A stretch of DNA of 64,000 bases from Pseudomonadota bacterium (GTDB lineage Bacteria; Pseudomonadota; Gammaproteobacteria; Burkholderiales; Burkholderiaceae_F): assembly GCA_029778535.1 (NCBI GenBank), contig JAKOQB010000144.1, forward strand, positions 1 to 64,000, given 5' to 3'. Within the stretch, counting starts at the first letter, position 1; each line of letters begins with the position of its first letter. Shown here piece by piece: positions 9,607 through 25,814 of this stretch. The position numbers were made by a program, and so were the translations under genes. The notes under the pieces are model-generated. The model saw nothing but the letters and a program-made list of their open reading frames with translations, was not told where the DNA came from and searched no databases.

Positions 9607-11496
9607 TCACGCCGATTGCGGCGTAAACGCATCCGACAGGCACGACGACTCGTCGAGCCCGTGCGCCAGCAGCGCGGGTCGCGCGTGGTCGACCATCTGC
9701 ATCGAGCCGCACGCGTAGACGAGGTGGCCGGCGAGATCGGGAAAATCCGCCAGCAGCGCCTCGTGCACGAGCCCGGTGCGGCCGGTCCATTCGTCCTCGG
9801 GACCGGCGTCGGACAGCACCGGTACGAATTTGAAGTTTGCGTGCTCGCGCGCCCACTGCGCGGGCAGGTCCGCCAGGTACAGATCGCGCCGCTTGCGCAC
9901 GCCCCAGTACAGGTACAAGGGCGCGCGGATGTCGCGCGCGAACGCTTCCTCCAGCAGGCTCTTGACCGGCGCGAAGCCGGTGGCGCCGGCGACGAACACG
10001 ATCGGCCGCTCTCCGTCGCGCAGCACGGTCGCACCCAGCGGACCTTCGAAGCGCATGCGGTCGCCGACGCGCAGCTTGTCGAACACGTACGACGTGAAGC
10101 GGCCGTTCTGGATGCGGCGCACGTGCAGCACGACGAGATCGGTCGCTCCGCTCCGCTCGGTGAACGAATACGCGCGCCGCGCGCCGTCCTCGAGCAGGAT
10201 GTTCACGTACTGGCCGGCTTCGTACGCGATCGTCTTGCCCGGATCGAGCCGTAGCGCGACCAGCATCACGTCGGGCGCCAGGCGCTCCAGCCGCTCGACG
10301 CTGGCGTGATACACGGGCAGCGGCTCCTCGCGCGCGGCGGCACCCTCCTCCAGTTCGATCTCGACGTCGGTCAGCGCGCGCGCGCAGCACAGCAGCACGT
10401 CGCCGCGCGCGCGCTGCTCGGCACTGAGCGCACCCGGCTGGTAGACGCCGGGGTCGACCTCGCCGATCAGCACGTGCGCGCGGCACATGCCGCAGCCACC
10501 GGAGCGGCAGTCGAACGGCAGCGCGACGTTGCCGCGCAGTCCGGCGTCGAGCAGCGTCTCGCCCGAGCGCACCGGCACCGTCCGGTTGCCGGGGTGCACG
10601 GTGAGCTGCCACGCGCGCACCGCTCCGCGCTTGACCGGCGGCAGCCAGGGCGCGAGCGCGAACAGCAGCGTGACCGCGGCCACGCCGATCCACAGCGCAT
10701 CAGCATGGTCGCGCGTGATGAGCGGATAGACCGTCAGGTAGAACCAGTCGAGCTCGATCTTCTGCGGCCAGGTGAGAAAGTCGGCGGCGCCCTGCGACAG
10801 CGCCGGCTTGACGAACGACAGCACGAGCAGCATCGCCGCGAGCCCGATCGCGAGCCCGCGCGGCGGCAGCGTGCGCGCGCGCGGCACGCGCTGCGTGTGC
10901 ACCCACAGCGCCGCAAGCGTGACCAGCGGGATGCCGATGTGCAGGAACTGCAGCAGCGAAAAGAAGCGGTCGTTGATCGCCTCCGGCAGGATGAAGTTGC
11001 GCGCCATGCGGCCGCGGAAGATCGGCAGCGCGTCGAACCACTCCGAGGTCGTCACCACCGTGTACTGCGCCAGCCGGTCCCAGGGCAGCATGTAGCCGTT
11101 GACGCCGGCCACGTACACCAGCCACAGCACGATGATGCCGGTCAGCCACGAGAACGCGCGGAAGCCGCGGTAGCGGTCGAAGAAGAAGTGGCGCGCGAAG
11201 TGCAGCAGCATCGTCAACACCATCGCGTCGGACGCGTAGCGGTGCAGGCTGCGCATCACGCCGCCGGCCCACCACTGCGCGCGGGTGAGCCGCTCGACCG
11301 ACGCGAAGGTGGTGTCCACGCCGGTCTCGTAGAACGCGTAGACGTAGAAGCCGCTGGCGACCACGACCCAGAACATGAAATAGCTGATCGCGCCGAGGTG
11401 GTACAGCGGATTGAGCGCGTCGCCGAACACGCGGTTGAACAGGCGCTCGACCTGCAGAAAGACGCGTTGGCCGGCGGCGTGGAGGGTCTTGATCAC
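9607..11496 (-). CDS. Fusion: diheme cytochrome b (bc/b6f N-terminal type) - 2Fe-2S ferredoxin - FAD/NAD(P) oxidoreductase
   Basis: SLHRYASDAMVLTMLLHFARHFFF + FLHIGIPLVTLAALWVHTQR (heme b His); FDCRSGGCGMCRAHV...LLCCA; RAYSFTE; GATGFAPVKSL. Confidence 0.9.
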   Translation of the reverse strand: MIKTLHAAGQRVFLQVERLFNRVFGDALNPLYHLGAISYFMFWVVVASGFYVYAFYETGVDTTFASVERLTRAQWWAGGVMRSLHRYASDAMVLTMLLHFARHFFFDRYRGFRAFSWLTGIIVLWLVYVAGVNGYMLPWDRLAQYTVVTTSEWFDALPIFRGRMARNFILPEAINDRFFSLLQFLHIGIPLVTLAALWVHTQRVPRARTLPPRGLAIGLAAMLLVLSFVKPALSQGAADFLTWPQKIELDWFYLTVYPLITRDHADALWIGVAAVTLLFALAPWLPPVKRGAVRAWQLTVHPGNRTVPVRSGETLLDAGLRGNVALPFDCRSGGCGMCRAHVLIGEVDPGVYQPGALSAEQRARGDVLLCCARALTDVEIELEEGAAAREEPLPVYHASVERLERLAPDVMLVALRLDPGKTIAYEAGQYVNILLEDGARRAYSFTERSGATDLVVLHVRRIQNGRFTSYVFDKLRVGDRMRFEGPLGATVLRDGERPIVFVAGATGFAPVKSLLEEAFARDIRAPLYLYWGVRKRRDLYLADLPAQWAREHANFKFVPVLSDAGPEDEWTGRTGLVHEALLADFPDLAGHLVYACGSMQMVDHARPALLAHGLDESSCLSDAFTPQSA

Positions 11497-12108: not shown

Positions 12109-12648
12109 ATGAGCGCGATTCAACCGCCTGGACAACGCGTCTGGTGGAAGCAGCCGATCGACAAGGTCGAGATCATCTGGATCGGCATGGCCTTCACCTG
12201 GTGCCTGATCATGTTCTTCATGATGCCGTACTGGCACGTGTACGGTAAGCAGAACCTGTCGTCGGAGACCTACCGCGTCACGCCGGCGCTGTACCAGAAG
12301 GCCGCCGAGGAGATGGTGGCCAAGTTCACGGTGCGCACGGAGACCGACGAGAAGATCCCGGTGGTCAAGCCGCCCGCCGGCTCCGATGTCTACCTGATCG
12401 CGCGCCTGTGGGCGTGGTGGCCGATCCTCGAGCTCGAGCAGGGCAAGACCTATCGCCTGCACCTAACCTCGATGGACTACCAGCACGGCTTCTCGCTGCA
12501 GCCCGAGAACATCAACATCCAGGTGCTGCCGGGCTACGAACACGTGGTCACGATCGCGCCGAACCGCGCCGGCACCTACGCGATCCTGTGCAACGAGTTC
12601 TGCGGCATCGGACACCACAAGATGGTGTCGAAGCTGTACGTGAAATAA
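12109..12648 (+). CDS. Cytochrome c oxidase subunit II-like CuA protein (NorS-like)
   Basis: N-terminal TM; MDYQHGFSLQPENINIQVLPGYEHVVTIAPNRAGTYAILCNEFCGIGHHKM (CuA ligand motif). Confidence 0.85.
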   Translation: MSAIQPPGQRVWWKQPIDKVEIIWIGMAFTWCLIMFFMMPYWHVYGKQNLSSETYRVTPALYQKAAEEMVAKFTVRTETDEKIPVVKPPAGSDVYLIARLWAWWPILELEQGKTYRLHLTSMDYQHGFSLQPENINIQVLPGYEHVVTIAPNRAGTYAILCNEFCGIGHHKMVSKLYVK

Positions 12649-12660
12649 GGGGGAGAGGAA

Positions 12661-14358
12661 ATGGCAAGCAATGCTGCGCAGTTTCGGGTCTGCCCCCGCA
12701 CCGGGCTGCAGTTCCACAAGTCGGCCGAGAACCTGATCAAGGCCAACGCGGTCGCGGCGGTGGTCGCGCTGCTGGTCGGCGGCATCCTGGCGCTGCTGGT
12801 GGTGCTGACGCGCTGGCAGGCGGTGCACCTGATCGACGCCGAGAACTTCTACATGGTCCTGACCGCGCACGGTCTGGACATGCTGGCGTTCTGGATCATC
12901 TTCTTCGAGATCGCGATCCTGTACTTCTGCTCGTCGACGCTGCTGCGCTCGCGGCTGGCGACACCGAGGATCGGCTGGCTGGCGTTCATACTGATGCTGG
13001 TCGGCGCGATCATGAACAACGTCGCCGTGTTCAAGGGCGACTCGACCGTGATGTTCACGTCGTACGTGCCGCTGCCGGGCACGCCGATGTTCTACCTCGG
13101 GCTGATCCTGTTCGCGGTCGGCGCGCTGATCGGCTGCTTCATCTTCCTTGGCACGCTGGTGGTCGCGCGCGCCGAGAAGACCTACGAGGGATCGATCCCG
13201 CTGGTGACCTTCGGTGCGCTGACGGCCTGCATCATCGCGATCTTCACGATCGCCTCCGGCGCGATCATCCTGATCCCGACCTTCCTGTGGTCGGTCGGCT
13301 ACATCCACTACATCGACCCGCTGATGTACCGCACGATCTGGTGGGGCTTCGGCCACAGCTCGCAGCAGATCAACGTCAGCGCGCACGTCGCGGTCTGGTA
13401 CGCGATCGCGGCGATCGTGTTCGGCGCCAAGCCGATGAGCGAGCGCGTGTCGCGCGTCGCTTTCGGCCTGTACATCCTGTTCCTGCAGCTCGCCTCCGCG
13501 CACCACCTGCTGTCCGACCCGGGCCTGGGCACCGAGTGGAAGGTGTTCAACACCTCCTACGCGATGTACCTCGCGGTGCTGGCGTCGATGATCCACGGCC
13601 TGACGGTGCCGGGGGCGATCGAAGTGGCGCAGCGCGAGAAGGGCTTCACCAAGGGCCTGTTCGAATGGATCCGCAAGGCGCCGTGGGGCAACCCGGTGTT
13701 CAGCGGCATGTTCATTTCGCTGCTGGGCTTCGGCTTCCTCGGTGGCATCTCGGGCGTGATGATGGGCACCGAGCAGCTCAACATGCTGATCCACAACACG
13801 ATCTACGTGCCGGGGCACTTCCACGCCACCGTCGTGGTCGGCACCACGCTCGCGTTCATGTCGATCACCTACTTCCTGATCCCGACGCTGTTCAACCGCG
13901 AGATGATCCTGCCGGGCCTGGCGAAGTGGCAGCCGTACCTGTTCGGACTCGGCATGTCGGTGTTCTGCCTGGCGATGATGGGCGCCGGAACGCTCGGCGT
14001 GCCGCGCCGGCACTGGGACATCACGTTCGCGGGCGCGTCGCTGCCGTACGAATTCCCCGGCACCGCGTGGCTGATGATCGCGATCTTCGCCATCTCCGGC
14101 CTGGTCGCGATCGTCGGCGGCATCGCCTACATCGTGATCACCGTGGGGTCGCTGCTGTTCGGCCGCAGGCTCGACGCCGGCGCCTACACGACCCAAGGCA
14201 CGGTGCTGCGGATGCCGTCGATCGCATTGACGGGCCACGGCAGCGCCGGCTTCGCCGCCCCGGGCACGTTCGTGTTCGCGCTCGTCTTCCTCGGCGCGTT
14301 CGTGCTGTACTACTTCGTCAACTGGAAGTATCTGTCGACGGTGTGGGGGCTGAGCTGA
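12661..14358 (+). CDS. Heme-copper oxidoreductase subunit I, non-canonical (NorY/NOR-like, lacks active-site Tyr)
   Basis: LTAHGLDMLAFW; GFGHSSQQINVSAHVAVWY in place of GHPEVY; LASAHHLLSD; YVPGHFHATVVVGTT. Confidence 0.85.
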   Translation: MASNAAQFRVCPRTGLQFHKSAENLIKANAVAAVVALLVGGILALLVVLTRWQAVHLIDAENFYMVLTAHGLDMLAFWIIFFEIAILYFCSSTLLRSRLATPRIGWLAFILMLVGAIMNNVAVFKGDSTVMFTSYVPLPGTPMFYLGLILFAVGALIGCFIFLGTLVVARAEKTYEGSIPLVTFGALTACIIAIFTIASGAIILIPTFLWSVGYIHYIDPLMYRTIWWGFGHSSQQINVSAHVAVWYAIAAIVFGAKPMSERVSRVAFGLYILFLQLASAHHLLSDPGLGTEWKVFNTSYAMYLAVLASMIHGLTVPGAIEVAQREKGFTKGLFEWIRKAPWGNPVFSGMFISLLGFGFLGGISGVMMGTEQLNMLIHNTIYVPGHFHATVVVGTTLAFMSITYFLIPTLFNREMILPGLAKWQPYLFGLGMSVFCLAMMGAGTLGVPRRHWDITFAGASLPYEFPGTAWLMIAIFAISGLVAIVGGIAYIVITVGSLLFGRRLDAGAYTTQGTVLRMPSIALTGHGSAGFAAPGTFVFALVFLGAFVLYYFVNWKYLSTVWGLS

Positions 14359-14443: not shown

Positions 14444-15340
14444 ATGAACGGGACCACAGTGGCTCAACCTCGGCCGCTCGCCACGGCGCGTGCGCTGTTC
14501 GGGCTGCTGAAGCTGCGCATCGGGCTGGTGATCGCGGTGACGGCGGTGGCCGGCGCCGCGATCCAGTCGGGGCCGTCGCTCTCCGGCGCCCGGCTCGCGC
14601 TGCTGTTCGTGACCGTGCTGATGTCGGCGGGCGCGGCCGGCGCGTTCAATCAGTACTACGAGACCGACGTCGACGCGCGCATGCAGCGCACGCGTAACCG
14701 GCCGTTCGTGTCGGGCCGCTTCCAGCGCGGGCCGGCCTGGCTCGCCGCGATCGCGGCGCTGGTCGGCATCGCGACCGCCGTAAGCTGGATGTGGCTGAAC
14801 AGCTCAGCAGCGCTTTACACGCTGGCCGGCGCGTTCACCTACGCGATCGTCTACACGGTGTGGCTGAAGCGGCGCACGTGGTGGAACATCGTGATCGGCG
14901 GCGCGGCCGGCAGCTTCGCCGTGCTCGCGGGCGCCGCCGCGGTGCAGCCGGATCTGTCTGCCGAGGCGTGGCTGCTGGCGATCGTTCTGTTCCTGTGGAC
15001 GCCGCCGCACTTCTGGAGCCTCGCGATGGTGTGCCGCGACGACTACGCGGCCGCCGGCGTGCCGATGCTGCCCGTGGTCAAGGGCGACCGCGTGACGGCG
15101 TACGCCATCCTCGGCCATGCGGTCGCGCTGGTGCTGCTGTCGCTGGTGCTGGCGTGGCTGCGGCCGGGGGCCATCTACCTGACCTGCGCCGCGCTCGGCG
15201 GAGCGTGGTTCGTGTACGCGGCGCTGCGGGTCGCGCGCAATCCGACGCGCGCGACCGCGATCCGCTGCTTCCTTGCCTCGCTGGCGCAGCTATCGCTGTT
15301 GTTGCTGGGAGCGATGGCCGATGCCGTGCTGCTGGGCTGA
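14444..15340 (+). CDS. cyoE: Protoheme IX farnesyltransferase (heme O synthase)
   Basis: LFGLLKLRIGLVIAVTAVAG...NQYYETDVDARMQRTRNRPFVSGR...LWTPPHFWSLAM. Confidence 0.95.
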   Translation: MNGTTVAQPRPLATARALFGLLKLRIGLVIAVTAVAGAAIQSGPSLSGARLALLFVTVLMSAGAAGAFNQYYETDVDARMQRTRNRPFVSGRFQRGPAWLAAIAALVGIATAVSWMWLNSSAALYTLAGAFTYAIVYTVWLKRRTWWNIVIGGAAGSFAVLAGAAAVQPDLSAEAWLLAIVLFLWTPPHFWSLAMVCRDDYAAAGVPMLPVVKGDRVTAYAILGHAVALVLLSLVLAWLRPGAIYLTCAALGGAWFVYAALRVARNPTRATAIRCFLASLAQLSLLLLGAMADAVLLG

Positions 15341-16151
15341 AGCGATCCGCAGCGCAGCGCGCGCGCTGGCCCTGATCGCCCTCGCCGCCCTGCCGGCGGC
15401 GCACGCCGAAGATCGCGATGGTGCCGCGCTGCGCGCGAGCCAGGCCGCGATCGGGCGCGATGCCGGGAACTGGACTTTCACCGATCGCCGCGGCCGCAGC
15501 GTTCAGTTCGCCGACTACCGCGGCAGGCCGCTGGTGGTCAGTTTCATCTACACCGGCTGCTTCCAGGTCTGCCCGGCGACCACGCAGTTCCTGAAGCGCG
15601 CGACCCAGGCGGCGCGCGACGCGCTCGGACGCGACAGCTTCCGCGTGGTGTCGATCGGCTTCAACCAGCCCTTCGACACGCCCGAGGCGCTGGCGGCGTT
15701 CGCGCGCCAGCAGGGGGTGGATCTGGACAACTGGGAGTTTCTCGCGCCGCGCGCGGACGACGTCGAGCCGCTGCTGCAGCGCTTCGGCATGTCGGTCACC
15801 GCCACGCCGTCCGGCTTCGATCACCTGATCCAGGCCACGATCGTCGACGGCGGCGGCCGCATCCACGCGCAGGTCTACGGCGACGCGTTCGAGCTGCCGC
15901 TGTTCATCGGTCCGCTGAAGGAGGCGCTCGCGGGCGAGGCCGCGCGCACGCTCACGATCGAGAACGTGTGGCGCAAGGTCAAGCTGTACTGCACCGTGTA
16001 CGACCCGGCCAGCGGCAAGTACAAATTCGACTACTCGCTGTTCGTCGAGATCTTCGCCGGCCTGACCACGCTGGGCGTGCTGGCGTGGTTCATCGGCCGC
16101 GAGTCGCGGCGCTACCTGCGGGCACGACGTACCACCTCCAGTACGTCTTGA
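15321..16151 (+). CDS. SCO1/SenC family protein with C-terminal TM extension
   Basis: RPLVVSFIYTGCFQVCPATTQFLKR (CxxxC), GFDHLIQATIVD; C-terminal TM FVEIFAGLTTLGVLAWFIGR. Confidence 0.9.
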   Translation: MPCCWAEAIRSAARALALIALAALPAAHAEDRDGAALRASQAAIGRDAGNWTFTDRRGRSVQFADYRGRPLVVSFIYTGCFQVCPATTQFLKRATQAARDALGRDSFRVVSIGFNQPFDTPEALAAFARQQGVDLDNWEFLAPRADDVEPLLQRFGMSVTATPSGFDHLIQATIVDGGGRIHAQVYGDAFELPLFIGPLKEALAGEAARTLTIENVWRKVKLYCTVYDPASGKYKFDYSLFVEIFAGLTTLGVLAWFIGRESRRYLRARRTTSSTS

Positions 16152-16211: not shown

Positions 16212-17747
16212 ATGCACGTTCAGCTCGCCTTCGCACCGAACGTGGCGCCGCTTCCGGCGCCGCGGCGCGCCGCGCGCGCGATCGAACGCGTCGAGCATGC
16301 GCTCGACGTGCCGTTCGGAAGCGCGAATCCGCTGCGGCAGCTCGGCGCGCTGGCATTTCTGTCGTTCTGGGTCGCGCTCGGCAGCGGCGCGTACCTGTTC
16401 GTGGTGTTCGACACCTCTGCGCTCGGCGCGCACGCGTCGATCGATGCGCTCAAGGGCGAGCCGCTGCTGGGCGGACTCGTGCGCGGGCTGCACCGCTACA
16501 GCGCCGATGCGTTCGCGGCCGTGACGCTGCTGCACCTGGCGCGCGAGTGGGCGCACGGCCGCTATCACGGCTTCCGCTGGTTCTCGTGGCTGACCGGTGT
16601 GCCGCTCGTGCTCCTGCTGGTTGCCGATGGCATGGTCGGCTACTGGCTGCCGGCCGATACGCGCGCGCAGTTCGTCGCGACCACGATCGGCGAATGGGTC
16701 GGTTGGTTGCCGGGCTTCGGCGACAGGCTGATCCGCAACTTCGTCACCGCCGATGCGATCTCGGATCGGCTCTTTTCTCTGCTGATCTTCCTGCACATCG
16801 GCGTGGGCCTGCTGATCCTGCTCGGCCTGTGGGTGCACCTGCTGCGGCTGGTGCGGCCGCGGGTGAATCCGGTGCGCGCCGGCGGCGTCGCCTTCGCCGT
16901 GCTGCTGGTGGCACTCGCGCTCGTGGCGCCCGCGCTGTCGACCGCGCCGGCCGACTTCGCGCGCGCGCCGGCGAACGTGCCGGTCGACTGGTTCTACCTG
17001 GCGCCGCTCGCGCTCGCGCAGGGCGCATCGCCCGCGCTTTCGTGGCTCGCGGTCGCCGCTGTCGCGCTGCTGCTCGGCGTGCTGCCGTGGACGCGGCGCG
17101 AGACGCGCACGCCGGTCGTGGTCGATCCGTCCAACTGCACCGGCTGCGCGCGCTGCTTCGACGACTGCCCGTACGGTGCGGTCGTGATGACGCCGCGCAG
17201 CGACACGGCGCGGTTCAAATCGATCGCGCGCGTCGATCCGGCGCTGTGCGCGGCGTGCGGCATCTGCGTCGGCGCGTGTCCGCGCTCCGATCCGTTCCGC
17301 CGCGTGCCGACGCTCGCGACCGGCATCGACCTGCCGGCGCGTCCGATCGACGCGCTGCGCCGCCGGCTCGACGCGGCGTTCGTGCACCGGCCCGGCGCCG
17401 CCGTCGTGTTCGGCTGCGATCATGGCGCCGACGTGAACTTGCTCGGCGGCCGCGACGTGATCGCACTGTCGGCGCCGTGCCTTGGCCAGGTGCCGCCGTC
17501 GTTCGCCGACTACGCGTTGCGCAAGGGAGCGCGCGCGGTGCTGTTCGCCGGCTGCGCCGAGGACGCGTGCGCGTTCCGCTTCGGCGCCGCTTTCACGCAC
17601 GCGCGCCTGACTGGCGCGCGTGAACCGCACCTGCATCCGCGCGCGCGCGGTCCGCGCGTGCAGGAAATCGACGCCGCGCGCGGCGACGAGACGCGCGTTC
17701 AGGCAGCCCTCAACCAGCAACGGGAATCGATCGATGCCGTGGCCTAG
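16212..17747 (+). CDS. Fusion: diheme cytochrome b - 2x[4Fe-4S] ferredoxin - MvhD-like hydrogenase delta domain
   Basis: GLHRYSADAFAAVTLLHLAREW; FLHIGVGLLILLGLWVHLLRL; CTGCARCFDDCPYGAVVM; CAACGICVGACPRSDPF; FGCDHGAD...APCLGQVPPSFADYALRKGARAVLFAGCAEDACAFRFG. Confidence 0.88.
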   Translation: MHVQLAFAPNVAPLPAPRRAARAIERVEHALDVPFGSANPLRQLGALAFLSFWVALGSGAYLFVVFDTSALGAHASIDALKGEPLLGGLVRGLHRYSADAFAAVTLLHLAREWAHGRYHGFRWFSWLTGVPLVLLLVADGMVGYWLPADTRAQFVATTIGEWVGWLPGFGDRLIRNFVTADAISDRLFSLLIFLHIGVGLLILLGLWVHLLRLVRPRVNPVRAGGVAFAVLLVALALVAPALSTAPADFARAPANVPVDWFYLAPLALAQGASPALSWLAVAAVALLLGVLPWTRRETRTPVVVDPSNCTGCARCFDDCPYGAVVMTPRSDTARFKSIARVDPALCAACGICVGACPRSDPFRRVPTLATGIDLPARPIDALRRRLDAAFVHRPGAAVVFGCDHGADVNLLGGRDVIALSAPCLGQVPPSFADYALRKGARAVLFAGCAEDACAFRFGAAFTHARLTGAREPHLHPRARGPRVQEIDAARGDETRVQAALNQQRESIDAVA

Positions 17748-18243
17748 TCCGATCCGTTACGCCGCGCAGGCGCTGCTGTACGGCGCATTCGCCGCGTTCG
17801 TCGGCTACTTCTCGACCCATCCGACGTTCTCGCTGCTGGCGCCGAACGAAGGGCTGCTGCGGCTGTCGTTCATGGCGCCGGGCAAGCCGCGCTTCGAATG
17901 CCGGCAACGCACGCCGGAGGAGCTCGCCAGGCTGCCGCCGCAGATGCGCGCGCAGACCGAGTGTCCGCGCGAGCGCTCGGCCGTGCGCGTGCGCGTCGAG
18001 CTCGACGGCGTGGCGGTGATCGACAGGGCGTTTCCGCCGGCCGGGCTGGCGAAGGACGGTGCCGCGGCCGGCTACCGGCGGCTGCCGGTGCCCGCGGGCA
18101 CGCACGAGCTGAAGGTTCAGGTCAACGACGATGCGCGCGCGAAGGGCTACACGTTCGAGAAGAGCGAACGGGTCGCGATCGCGCCGGGCCAGATCGTGCT
18201 GATCGATTTCAATCCCGAGCGCGGAGGCGTGCTGATCCGATGA
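17734..18243 (+). CDS. Conserved-looking hypothetical membrane-anchored protein in the heme-copper operon
   Basis: MPWPSPIRYAAQALLYGAFAAFVGYFSTHPTFSLLAPNEGLLRLSFMAPGKPRFECRQRTPEEL...; overlaps preceding gene and meets 18240 start. Confidence 0.7.
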   Translation: MPWPSPIRYAAQALLYGAFAAFVGYFSTHPTFSLLAPNEGLLRLSFMAPGKPRFECRQRTPEELARLPPQMRAQTECPRERSAVRVRVELDGVAVIDRAFPPAGLAKDGAAAGYRRLPVPAGTHELKVQVNDDARAKGYTFEKSERVAIAPGQIVLIDFNPERGGVLIR

Positions 18244-19727
18244 AGCCTGTGACGGCGATCGAGGCGCGCGCGTGGCCCGTGGCGCGCGCGGCGGCCGTGC
18301 ACCGCTACGGCCTGGCCGTGCACGCCGGCGAGCGTCGGCGACTGGCGACGGCGTGGCTGCTGCTCGCGGTCGGCGCGCTGCTCGCGGCGGGCGTGTTCTC
18401 GGTGCTGCTGGTGGCGGCGCGCACGCCGGCGATCGGAGCCATGCTTCCCGGGGTCGACTTCTTCCGCGTCGCGCTGGTGGTGCACGTCGACCTGTCGGTG
18501 CTGGTGTGGTTCGCCAGTTGCGCGGGGCTCTTGTGGAGCATCGCCGGTACCGAGCGCTGGCTCGGCGCGGCGTGGATCGGCTGGGGGCTGGCGCTGCTGG
18601 GCAGCGTTGCGCTCGCCGCGGCGCCGTTCGTGCAGTACGCGCTTCCGGTGATGGCCAACTACGTGCCTGTGCTCGACGGCAGCGTGTTCATCGCCGGGCT
18701 GGTGATCGTCGGCTCGGGCTTCGGCCTGACCGCGCTGCGCGCGCTCGCGGTGCCGGCCAAGGTCGGCACCGCGCTCGCGCCGGAAGGCGCGCTGCGCTTC
18801 GGGTTGAACACCGCGGCGGTCGCGGCGGCGGTCGCGCTGCTCGCGCTGGCGTGGTCGGCGTTCGCGGTGCCGCGCGAGCTGCCGGCCAGGGCGTACTACG
18901 AGATGCTGTTCTGGGGACCCGGACACGTCGCGCAGTTCTGCTGGAGCCTGATCATGCTGGTCGCGTGGCTGTGGCTTGCATCGCTGACCGGCGCGCGCGT
19001 GCCGCTCAGCCCGCGCGTGATGGCGCTGCTGTTCGCGATCGGGCTGGCGTCGGTGTTCGCCACCCCGGTGATCTACCTCGCGTGGGACGTGACGTCGGTC
19101 GAGTTCCAGCGCCTGTTCACCTGGCAGATGCGTTTCGGCGGGGGGCTCGCGATCGTGCCGGTCACCGCGGCGATCGCGCTCGCGCTTTTCGCGTCGCGCT
19201 CGGTCTCGCTCGACGCGAAGGACAAGCCGCTGCGCGCGGCGCTGATCGCATCGGTGCTGCTGTTCGCCGCCGGCGGACTGATCGGCTTCCTGATCCGCGG
19301 CTCCGACGTGCGGATTCCGGCGCACTACCACGGCTCGATCGTCGGCGTCACGCTGGCGCTGATGGGGCTGATCTACGCGCTGTTGCCGCGGCTCGGGTTC
19401 GCGGCGCCCGCCTCGCGCGCGGCGGCGTGGCAGCCGTGGGTCTACGGCGGCGGCCAACTGCTGCACATCGTCGGGCTGGTGTGGTCGGGCGGCTACGGCG
19501 TTCAGCGCAAGGTTGCCGGCGCAGAGCAGGTGTTGCGTACGCCGGGCGAGATCGCCGGCATGGGTCTGATGGGGCTCGGCGGGCTGATCGCGGTGATCGG
19601 CGGGCTGCTGTTCGTGATCGTCGTGTTGCGCGCGCTCAAGCCCAATCCGGACGCCGCGACGCGAGCGTCTGCGCGCCGCGGAGAGGTTGACACGCGAGCG
19701 CGTTCGCGCCGCGGAGAGGCGGCGTGA
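18240..19727 (+). CDS. Heme-copper oxidase subunit I-like protein lacking His-His CuB ligands
   Basis: VVHVDLSVLVWF; MLFWGPGHVAQFCWSLIM; RIPAHYHGSIVGVTLALMGLIYALLPR; GGQLLHIVGLVWSGGYGVQRK; no HH motif after helix VI. Confidence 0.8.
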   Translation: MKPVTAIEARAWPVARAAAVHRYGLAVHAGERRRLATAWLLLAVGALLAAGVFSVLLVAARTPAIGAMLPGVDFFRVALVVHVDLSVLVWFASCAGLLWSIAGTERWLGAAWIGWGLALLGSVALAAAPFVQYALPVMANYVPVLDGSVFIAGLVIVGSGFGLTALRALAVPAKVGTALAPEGALRFGLNTAAVAAAVALLALAWSAFAVPRELPARAYYEMLFWGPGHVAQFCWSLIMLVAWLWLASLTGARVPLSPRVMALLFAIGLASVFATPVIYLAWDVTSVEFQRLFTWQMRFGGGLAIVPVTAAIALALFASRSVSLDAKDKPLRAALIASVLLFAAGGLIGFLIRGSDVRIPAHYHGSIVGVTLALMGLIYALLPRLGFAAPASRAAAWQPWVYGGGQLLHIVGLVWSGGYGVQRKVAGAEQVLRTPGEIAGMGLMGLGGLIAVIGGLLFVIVVLRALKPNPDAATRASARRGEVDTRARSRRGEAA

Positions 19728-20602
19728 TCCGCGCGCTGCTGTGGGCGGCGCTGGCGCTCGCGTTCGTCGTGCTCGCGGCGAGCAGCAGCCTGCGGCTGGC
19801 CGCCAACGGCCTTTCGTGCACGCCGTGGCCGGCCTGCTACGGCCAGCCCGCCACCGCCGAGGCGCAGAGCGACGCGACGACGACCGCCGCGTTGCGCGCC
19901 ATCCATCGCGTCGCCGCGACCGTGTTCGGGCTGCTGGCGCTGGCGCTTCCTGTCGCGGGCTGGCGGCGGTTCGCGCGCGGCGAGCGCGCGGCGACGCTGC
20001 TGCTGCTGGCGGTCACCGCCGGTCTGGCGTGGCTCGGCCGCCATACGCCCTCGCCGCTGCCGGCGGTCACGGTAGCCAACGTGCTCGGCGGGCTGACGCT
20101 GATCGGCCTGCTCGCGTGGCTGCTGGCGCCGGCGGCCGGGCGCGCGCGCATCGCGGTCGTCGGCGCGTTCACGCTCGCGCTCGCCGCGCAGACGGCCGGC
20201 GGCGCGCTGATCAGCGCGCGGCTGGCCGGCGCGGCGTGCGTGCCCGCGTGCGAGCGGGCATGGCAACCGGGCGCGCTAGCGCTGTGGAACCCGGCGCGCG
20301 CGGGCAGCGCGCAGGAACTGCTCGGCGATCCGAAGGCAGGTCAGCCGCTGGTCACCACGCACGCGTTCGCCGGCATCGCGCTGCTGCTCGCCGCGATCGG
20401 AATCGGCGCCGCGCACGGCGGATTGCGTGCGGCACGCCGGTTGTCGATGAACGCCGGTGCCGTGGTGGCGGCCGGCATGGCGCTGTACGTGTTCGACAGT
20501 CAGCTTTGGCTGGCGGTGCTGCATGCGGCGCTCGCTGGTGCGCTGGTCGCCGCGCTGGCGGCGCTCGCCGCCGGCGGCAAGGCTTCATTGGAGGGCGCCT
20601 GA
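19724..20602 (+). CDS. COX15/CtaA-like (heme A synthase family) membrane protein
   Basis: LRLAANGLSCTPWPACYGQP...AIHRVAATVFGLLALALP...LLWNPARAGSAQELLGDPKAGQPLVTTHAFAGIALLL. Confidence 0.75.
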   Translation: MIRALLWAALALAFVVLAASSSLRLAANGLSCTPWPACYGQPATAEAQSDATTTAALRAIHRVAATVFGLLALALPVAGWRRFARGERAATLLLLAVTAGLAWLGRHTPSPLPAVTVANVLGGLTLIGLLAWLLAPAAGRARIAVVGAFTLALAAQTAGGALISARLAGAACVPACERAWQPGALALWNPARAGSAQELLGDPKAGQPLVTTHAFAGIALLLAAIGIGAAHGGLRAARRLSMNAGAVVAAGMALYVFDSQLWLAVLHAALAGALVAALAALAAGGKASLEGA

Positions 20603-20838
20603 TGATCGTGATCGATGCGCGCGGACTCGAGCCACCGGCCCCGTTCGAGCGGGTGATGGAAGCGCTGTGCGCGCTGCAGCCGGATCAGCGCATCCTGCTG
20701 ATCCTCGAGCGCGAGCCGTTTCCGCTGTACCGCGTGCTCGAGCGCAACGGCTACGCGCACCGCACGCGGCAGTCCGACCGGGGGCACTTCGAAATCGAGA
20801 TCGGCGCGCCGGAGGTGTTCAAGAGCTACGGCGCATAG
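20602..20838 (+). CDS. DUF2249 domain protein
   Basis: MIVIDARGLEPPAPFERVMEALCALQPDQRILLILEREPFPLYRVLERNGYAHRTRQSDRGHFEIEI. Confidence 0.85.
   Translation: MIVIDARGLEPPAPFERVMEALCALQPDQRILLILEREPFPLYRVLERNGYAHRTRQSDRGHFEIEIGAPEVFKSYGA

Positions 20839-24086: not shown

Positions 24087-25814
<1,728 letters not shown>

Follow-up and report, generated by a model that had tools for sequence, protein, structure and literature searches.

The operon analysed here carries, beside a canonical heme-copper subunit I, a second protein of the same kind, P0001, which belongs to an old, separate clade in many Pseudomonadota and in which the ligands of the hemes are kept while both histidines of the helix VII pair that would bind CuB are gone. 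The explanation that we prefer, and to which we give about an even chance, is that P0001 is a copper-free, probably two-heme pseudo-subunit I that acts for a-type heme-copper enzymes, in making heme A, in delivering it or in supplying electrons. The hallmark of heme-copper proteins is a set of three metal-binding histidines, and a widespread clade that retains the heme ligands and lacks the metal pair would amount to a pseudoenzyme branch within the superfamily. A survey that takes each PF00115 gene for an oxidase or NO reductase would count this clade wrongly, and if P0001 works with CtaA it would bear on how, in bacteria, heme A synthase is reduced and heme A is brought to the enzyme.

The operon lies in a stretch of DNA of 64,000 nucleotides (the window) and its genes encode, in order, CoxII with a CuA site, COX1, CtaB, SCO, a cytochrome b-4Fe4S protein, a small protein, P0001, a CtaA homologue and a DUF2249 protein (Table 1). 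The P0001 gene overlaps its neighbour by 4 nt on each side, the small-protein gene ending in an ATGA overlap with it. The CuA-type subunit II directly precedes the canonical COX1 and, as a sequence-only reading of the window had remarked, no subunit II follows P0001. In the cytochrome b-4Fe4S protein H94, H108, H195, H209 and the Cys residues are conserved, as are C56, C77, R79-E80-R81, D108 and D132 in the small protein; the gene product that we take to be CtaB was named by recognition of its sequence. The cytochrome b-FNR fusion is divergent in the window, and many loci have a homologue of it downstream of the P0001 homologue. Besides the two counts given in Table 1, the neighbours kept among 80 loci, many of which are interrupted by contig ends, are cytochrome b-Fd (65), SCO (64), cytochrome b-FNR (63), eNOR COX1 (60) and CoxII (56). 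Culturable carriers with eNOR synteny include Parapusillimonas granuli LMG 24012 (L082) and Pollutimonas bauzanensis (L060). The surrounding region (1-26874) is denitrification-like, with a Crp/Fnr-like regulator, a cytochrome d1-domain protein (24087-25814) and, to judge by eye from the ORF translations, an NnrS-like protein and genes for subunits of nitrate reductase.

Table 1. Genes of the operon and its divergent neighbour, in window coordinates
Feature	Position	Strand	Remarks
Cytochrome b - 2Fe2S - FAD/NAD reductase fusion (cytochrome b-FNR)	9607..11496	-	divergent
Subunit II, CuA motif (CNEFCGIGHHKM)	12109..12648	+	PF00116; partner of canonical COX1, directly upstream of COX1
Canonical heme-copper subunit I, HH + GHSSQQ; eNOR-type NO reductase	12661..14358	+	profile match and Gln signature
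CtaB-like protein (heme O synthase)	14444..15340	+	homologue in 52 of 80 loci
SCO1/SenC copper chaperone	15273..16151	+	PF02630
Cytochrome b fused to two 4Fe-4S clusters and FlpD-like domain	16212..17747	+	
Small membrane-anchored protein, matches no known family	17734..18243	+	conserved in 68 of 80 loci
CuB-less COX1-like protein P0001	18240..19727	+	495 aa; PF00115
CtaA/COX15 homologue	19724..20602	+	PF02628; 4-nt overlap with P0001
DUF2249 protein, last gene of the run	20602..20838	+	

The canonical COX1 of the operon has, when aligned with ba3 oxidase, a Gln at the place of ba3 Tyr237, and Gln in place of the active-site Tyr is the mark of eNOR (PMC8756737). Relatives yielded 58 partner COX1 proteins, and these keep both HH and this Gln. 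An sNOR identity was ruled out, since GHSSQQ carries Gln at the diagnostic site. Because CtaA and CtaB are present in eNOR operons, we infer that eNOR uses a-type heme.

P0001 itself is a heme-copper subunit I by its predicted fold. Membership of the superfamily at this level is indicated both by a match to the Pfam COX1 model PF00115 (43.6 bits; cut-off 34.8) and by an AlphaFold2 model, built from 76 aligned sequences (pLDDT 91.5), which has the heme-copper COX1 fold. Using Foldseek, the nearest structure to the model was the ba3 oxidase of Thermus thermophilus, followed by cbb3, aa3, bo3 and NOR structures (E 6e-7, TM about 0.6-0.66). A search of the NCBIfam models with P0001 gave no match, nor did the PDB chain sequences when searched with the single P0001 sequence and then with the family profile, and a plasmid search found no homologues.

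We aligned P0001 with 80 relatives taken from one-per-species genomes, giving 81 sequences. The helix II His (H82), the helix VI His (H229) and the helix X HYH (H362 and H364) that had been quoted from the sequence were all found and are invariant, in 78 of the 78 sequences covering the position for H82 and in 81 of 81 for each of the others. H409 is present in 80 of 81, E221 and Q232 are invariant, Y279 is near-invariant, and so invariably kept is the heme-propionate pair R423-K424, which aligns with eNOR R449-R450. The place of the HH pair was set by aligning the family profile with the profile of the operon's own canonical COX1 (eNOR), which over helices VI-VII gave an ungapped alignment of 69 residues with a score of 39.9, against -20.8 for the next best offset and a mean of -57.6 for the others; its anchors, common to the family and eNOR, are GH..Q in helix VI and P(L/M)S.RV ahead of helix VII. 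An hhalign comparison of the two confirmed their kinship but drifted around helix VII, and the placement was therefore not taken from it. In the anchored alignment eNOR H281-H282 falls on I278-Y279 of P0001, so that no helix VII His-His is left, as the sequence-only reading had claimed. Position 278 is A, I, L, V or F across the 81 sequences (mostly A or I), position 279 is Tyr in 80 of them, and F233, the site of the cross-linked Tyr of oxidases and the Gln of eNOR, is Phe in 78. The HH pair is absent from all 81 sequences and from more distant paralogues, and the alignment argues, family-wide, that the heme ligands are kept and the canonical CuB triad is lost. Heme-copper oxidoreductases have a His sextet, consisting of two low-spin heme ligands, one proximal ligand and three non-heme metal ligands (PMC3413370), of which P0001 has four, both helix VII His being missing.

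The combination of invariant heme-side His and family-wide HH loss is far from an effect of chance or of a frameshift. An error of sequence was ruled out, as the ORF of P0001 is intact with no internal stop and the same loss occurs in some 80 relatives, whose genomes are mostly draft MAGs, and the ungapped helix VI-VII alignment excludes a pair merely shifted nearby. Contamination of the assembly from which the window comes stands at 7.6%, and a second, fragmentary copy is present in it. A second family member lies on a short contig (G000 C50:389-1756, L006) and keeps H289, and another short contig of the assembly holds a second CtaA-like fragment (G000 C80:5-904, L139); the two pieces perhaps come from another eNOR-type operon of a contaminating relative.

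We also considered whether the family uses an unusual metal site, formed by H229 with H282, D283 or H289, which is very unlikely despite the frequency of these residues, His being present at 282 in 41 of 81 sequences (Tyr in 27, Trp in 6), Asp at 283 in 62 and His at 289 in 75. In the alignment position 282 follows the second His of HH by 3 residues and position 289 follows it by 10, and in the AlphaFold2 model helix VII ends before either is reached; an aromatic residue (Tyr, Trp or Phe) occupies 282 in 37 members, and P0001 itself has W282 and F289. A novel metal site had been among the earlier suggestions and fares poorly, since the H282 and H289 of many relatives are not universal and are missing in P0001. 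H282-D283 as a substitute for HH ('AHD' for 'AHH') was dropped, as the anchored alignment sets 282 three residues past the second His. Among the 81 aligned sequences we found no alternative set of His that would complete a metal site in every member, and the claim of HH loss stands.

A quickly searched tree of 60 sequences, in which branches are long, places 26 family members and eight distant paralogues in one 100* clade with a long stem, apart from eNOR and the aa3 oxidases. Within the limits of such a tree, it rules out P0001 as a local duplicate of the operon's eNOR. No HH was seen in the motif rows of the distant paralogues (L119, L120, L121, L122, L124 and L125 among them) and thus its loss is probably ancestral to the clade, whose distribution was sampled within Pseudomonadota. 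Several distant paralogues lie in ORFs of about 540-980 aa, and that of L121 has C-terminal TPR repeats. Another, at L098 7453-8937, belongs to a SCO-CoxII-CoxA run, where it overlaps the aa3-like CoxA gene at its end and is placed like a further subunit. In the literature covered we found no description of the P0001 family; an earlier mention, for instance in a survey of new NOR families, is possible.

What P0001 might do can be considered from the residues that it keeps. With both helix VII His gone (I/A278, Y279) the usual CuB cannot form, and without it the usual O2 or NO reduction is not expected. Ligands would remain for a low-spin heme (H82 and H364) and for the former active-site heme (H362), together with helix VI H229, which may directly ligate the second heme and make it six-coordinate. 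Judging from the invariant ligands P0001 is probably a two-heme cytochrome, and their retention with R423-K424, and the removal of CuB, would fit a membrane protein whose task is electron transfer or the holding of heme. Since heme A synthesis is the recurring partner, we favour a part in the production or delivery of a-type heme. P0001 would then act beside a CtaA-family partner and mature a-type hemes, which would go to the eNOR of its own operon and, where other bacteria carry the gene, to aa3 oxidases; heme A synthase may receive electrons by way of the two hemes of P0001 or, as a second option, P0001 may hold hemes and hand them to the true subunit I. We infer the heme content, the partner and the direction of electron or heme flow, and it is genome association that points to a-type heme maturation. 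The non-catalytic assembly or electron-transfer role put forward in the sequence-only reading is upheld as a candidate by the operon context and the adjacency of CtaA and CtaB. In yeast, a 2Fe-2S ferredoxin together with its reductase supplies the electrons for heme A synthase (Cox15; PMC7140478), to which the cytochrome b-2Fe2S-FAD/NAD fusion would be a striking parallel.

The evidence for a link with heme A synthesis comes from gene neighbourhoods. Among 274 Gammaproteobacteria genomes the P0001 family is present in 29, and in five of these (G008, G157, G268, G211 and G232, three of which also have eNOR elsewhere in the genome) the family gene has a canonical CtaA no more than 1 kb away, where 0.04 would be expected by chance if the genomes are taken as unrelated and shared ancestry is ignored. 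In the phylum sample the family gene adjoins canonical CtaA in six further cases (G280, G309, G316, G397, G327 and G303), and CtaB adjoins it in L063, L084, L088, L094, L096 and L135; at L090, L092 and L093 neither CtaA, CtaB nor eNOR adjoins it. Since the pairs of CtaA and family gene may be divergent or, in either order, tandem, their association was probably re-formed on several occasions, although some of the genomes are related and, as several share a family code, not all are independent. G280 and G309 each have a single other COX1, which is a strong match, looks like an aa3 type and in the neighbourhood scan matches the aa3 CoxA of the window genome. Across the Gammaproteobacteria, canonical CtaA occurs in 26 of 29 family carriers versus 150 of 245 other genomes (p=0.002), being common overall (176 of 274).

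Co-occurrence with eNOR is stronger than that with CtaA, and an eNOR-specific role is therefore possible. eNOR was found in 23 of the 274 genomes and together with the family in 18, that is in 18 of 29 carriers versus 5 of 245 others (Fisher p 1e-16). The main rival to our explanation is that P0001 is an electron-transfer subunit of the eNOR complex, in which CuA and the catalytic subunit would be fed through its two hemes by quinol or by the cytochrome b-ferredoxin proteins. This seems to us unlikely, if worth serious attention: synteny with eNOR is strong and the cytochrome b-Fd, small-protein and cytochrome b-FNR genes travel with the family gene, but 11 of the 29 carriers have no detectable eNOR, and in eNOR-less genomes the family gene pairs with CtaA or CtaB. 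Moreover, five of the 23 eNOR genomes lack the family gene, several of them with the rest of the operon kept, and in G111 and G214, which have no family gene, a canonical CtaA stands in the eNOR operon behind the small protein. Also in favour of a subunit are stand-alone CoxII-like genes near family members without an eNOR COX1 (L127 13032-13613, L128 5565-6212 and L131 6822-7388), whose products have about 40% identity to eNOR subunit II.

The preferred role in heme A synthesis or delivery has to be read beside the state of the operon's own CtaA homologue. In CtaA Glu57 is catalytic and the invariant His are heme ligands (PMC7140478), and here Arg replaces this Glu and Asn one of the four invariant His, on the substrate-heme side (pattern R|HNHH), with the other three kept. 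A pattern lacking this Glu and having this Asn was found in 47 of 70 CtaA-family sequences of the examined neighbourhoods, a set that includes duplicate window copies, mostly at eNOR loci: 34 have Arg (one truncated sequence included), eight Thr and five other residues. The canonical E|HHHH is seen in 21 complete sequences of the 70, plus two cut short. A role as heme A synthase in eNOR operons is therefore doubtful, and the homologue is possibly a new CtaA-derived protein. By sequence, the operon holds two proteins of the heme a world, each keeping heme ligands without the known catalytic parts. Conceivably, though we regard this as a long shot, the CuB-less COX1 and the Glu-less CtaA together form an unrecognised heme-handling machine for the NO reductase under low oxygen and, in a stronger form of the idea, NO or O2 chemistry of the CuB-less heme itself would supply the reaction.

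P0001 could also be a catalytic or sensory protein in its own right, with a copper-free heme that binds NO or O2 in a pocket of H229, Y279, Q232 and E221. The invariance of E221, H229 and Q232, and the near-invariance of Y279, imply strong selection on the distal side, and the putative NO dismutases show that altered metal ligands may go with other roles (PMC3413370). Nonetheless we consider such a function improbable, as those proteins lose only a single His and presumably keep a metal, whereas P0001 is without both helix VII His, and some genomes that have the family gene contain just one further COX1 and none of the NOR type.

Compared with known systems, the preferred role would set P0001 beside CtaA/Cox15 and assembly factors such as Surf1, which the title of a reference cited in PMC7140478 describes as a heme-binding protein in oxidase biogenesis. 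The likeness is one of genome neighbourhood; the folds are unrelated, and it is gene association that would suggest a common function. The putative NO dismutase of M. oxyfera is, like P0001, a heme-copper protein with altered non-heme metal ligands, but belongs to the qNORs and loses only one His, to Asn, together with a change of Glu to Gln (PMC3413370), whereas in P0001 two His have become A/I and Tyr; by structure match and the quick tree P0001 is nearer eNOR and ba3 than the qNOR outgroup. The B-type ba3 oxidase is the top structural match of the model, but the cross-linked Tyr and CuB triad of the A- and B-type O2 reductases are replaced in P0001 by Phe233 and the absence of HH, and sequence searches of the PDB match nothing. 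With eNOR it shares the operon, the fold, a profile-profile match (hhalign, E 1e-24), a Gln three residues past the helix VI His and the alignment of H82, H229, H362 and H364 with eNOR H70, H232, H386 and H388. It differs in lacking HH, in having Phe at the diagnostic site, with Gln only at +3, in having no adjoining subunit II of its own and in its separate 100* clade in the quick tree.
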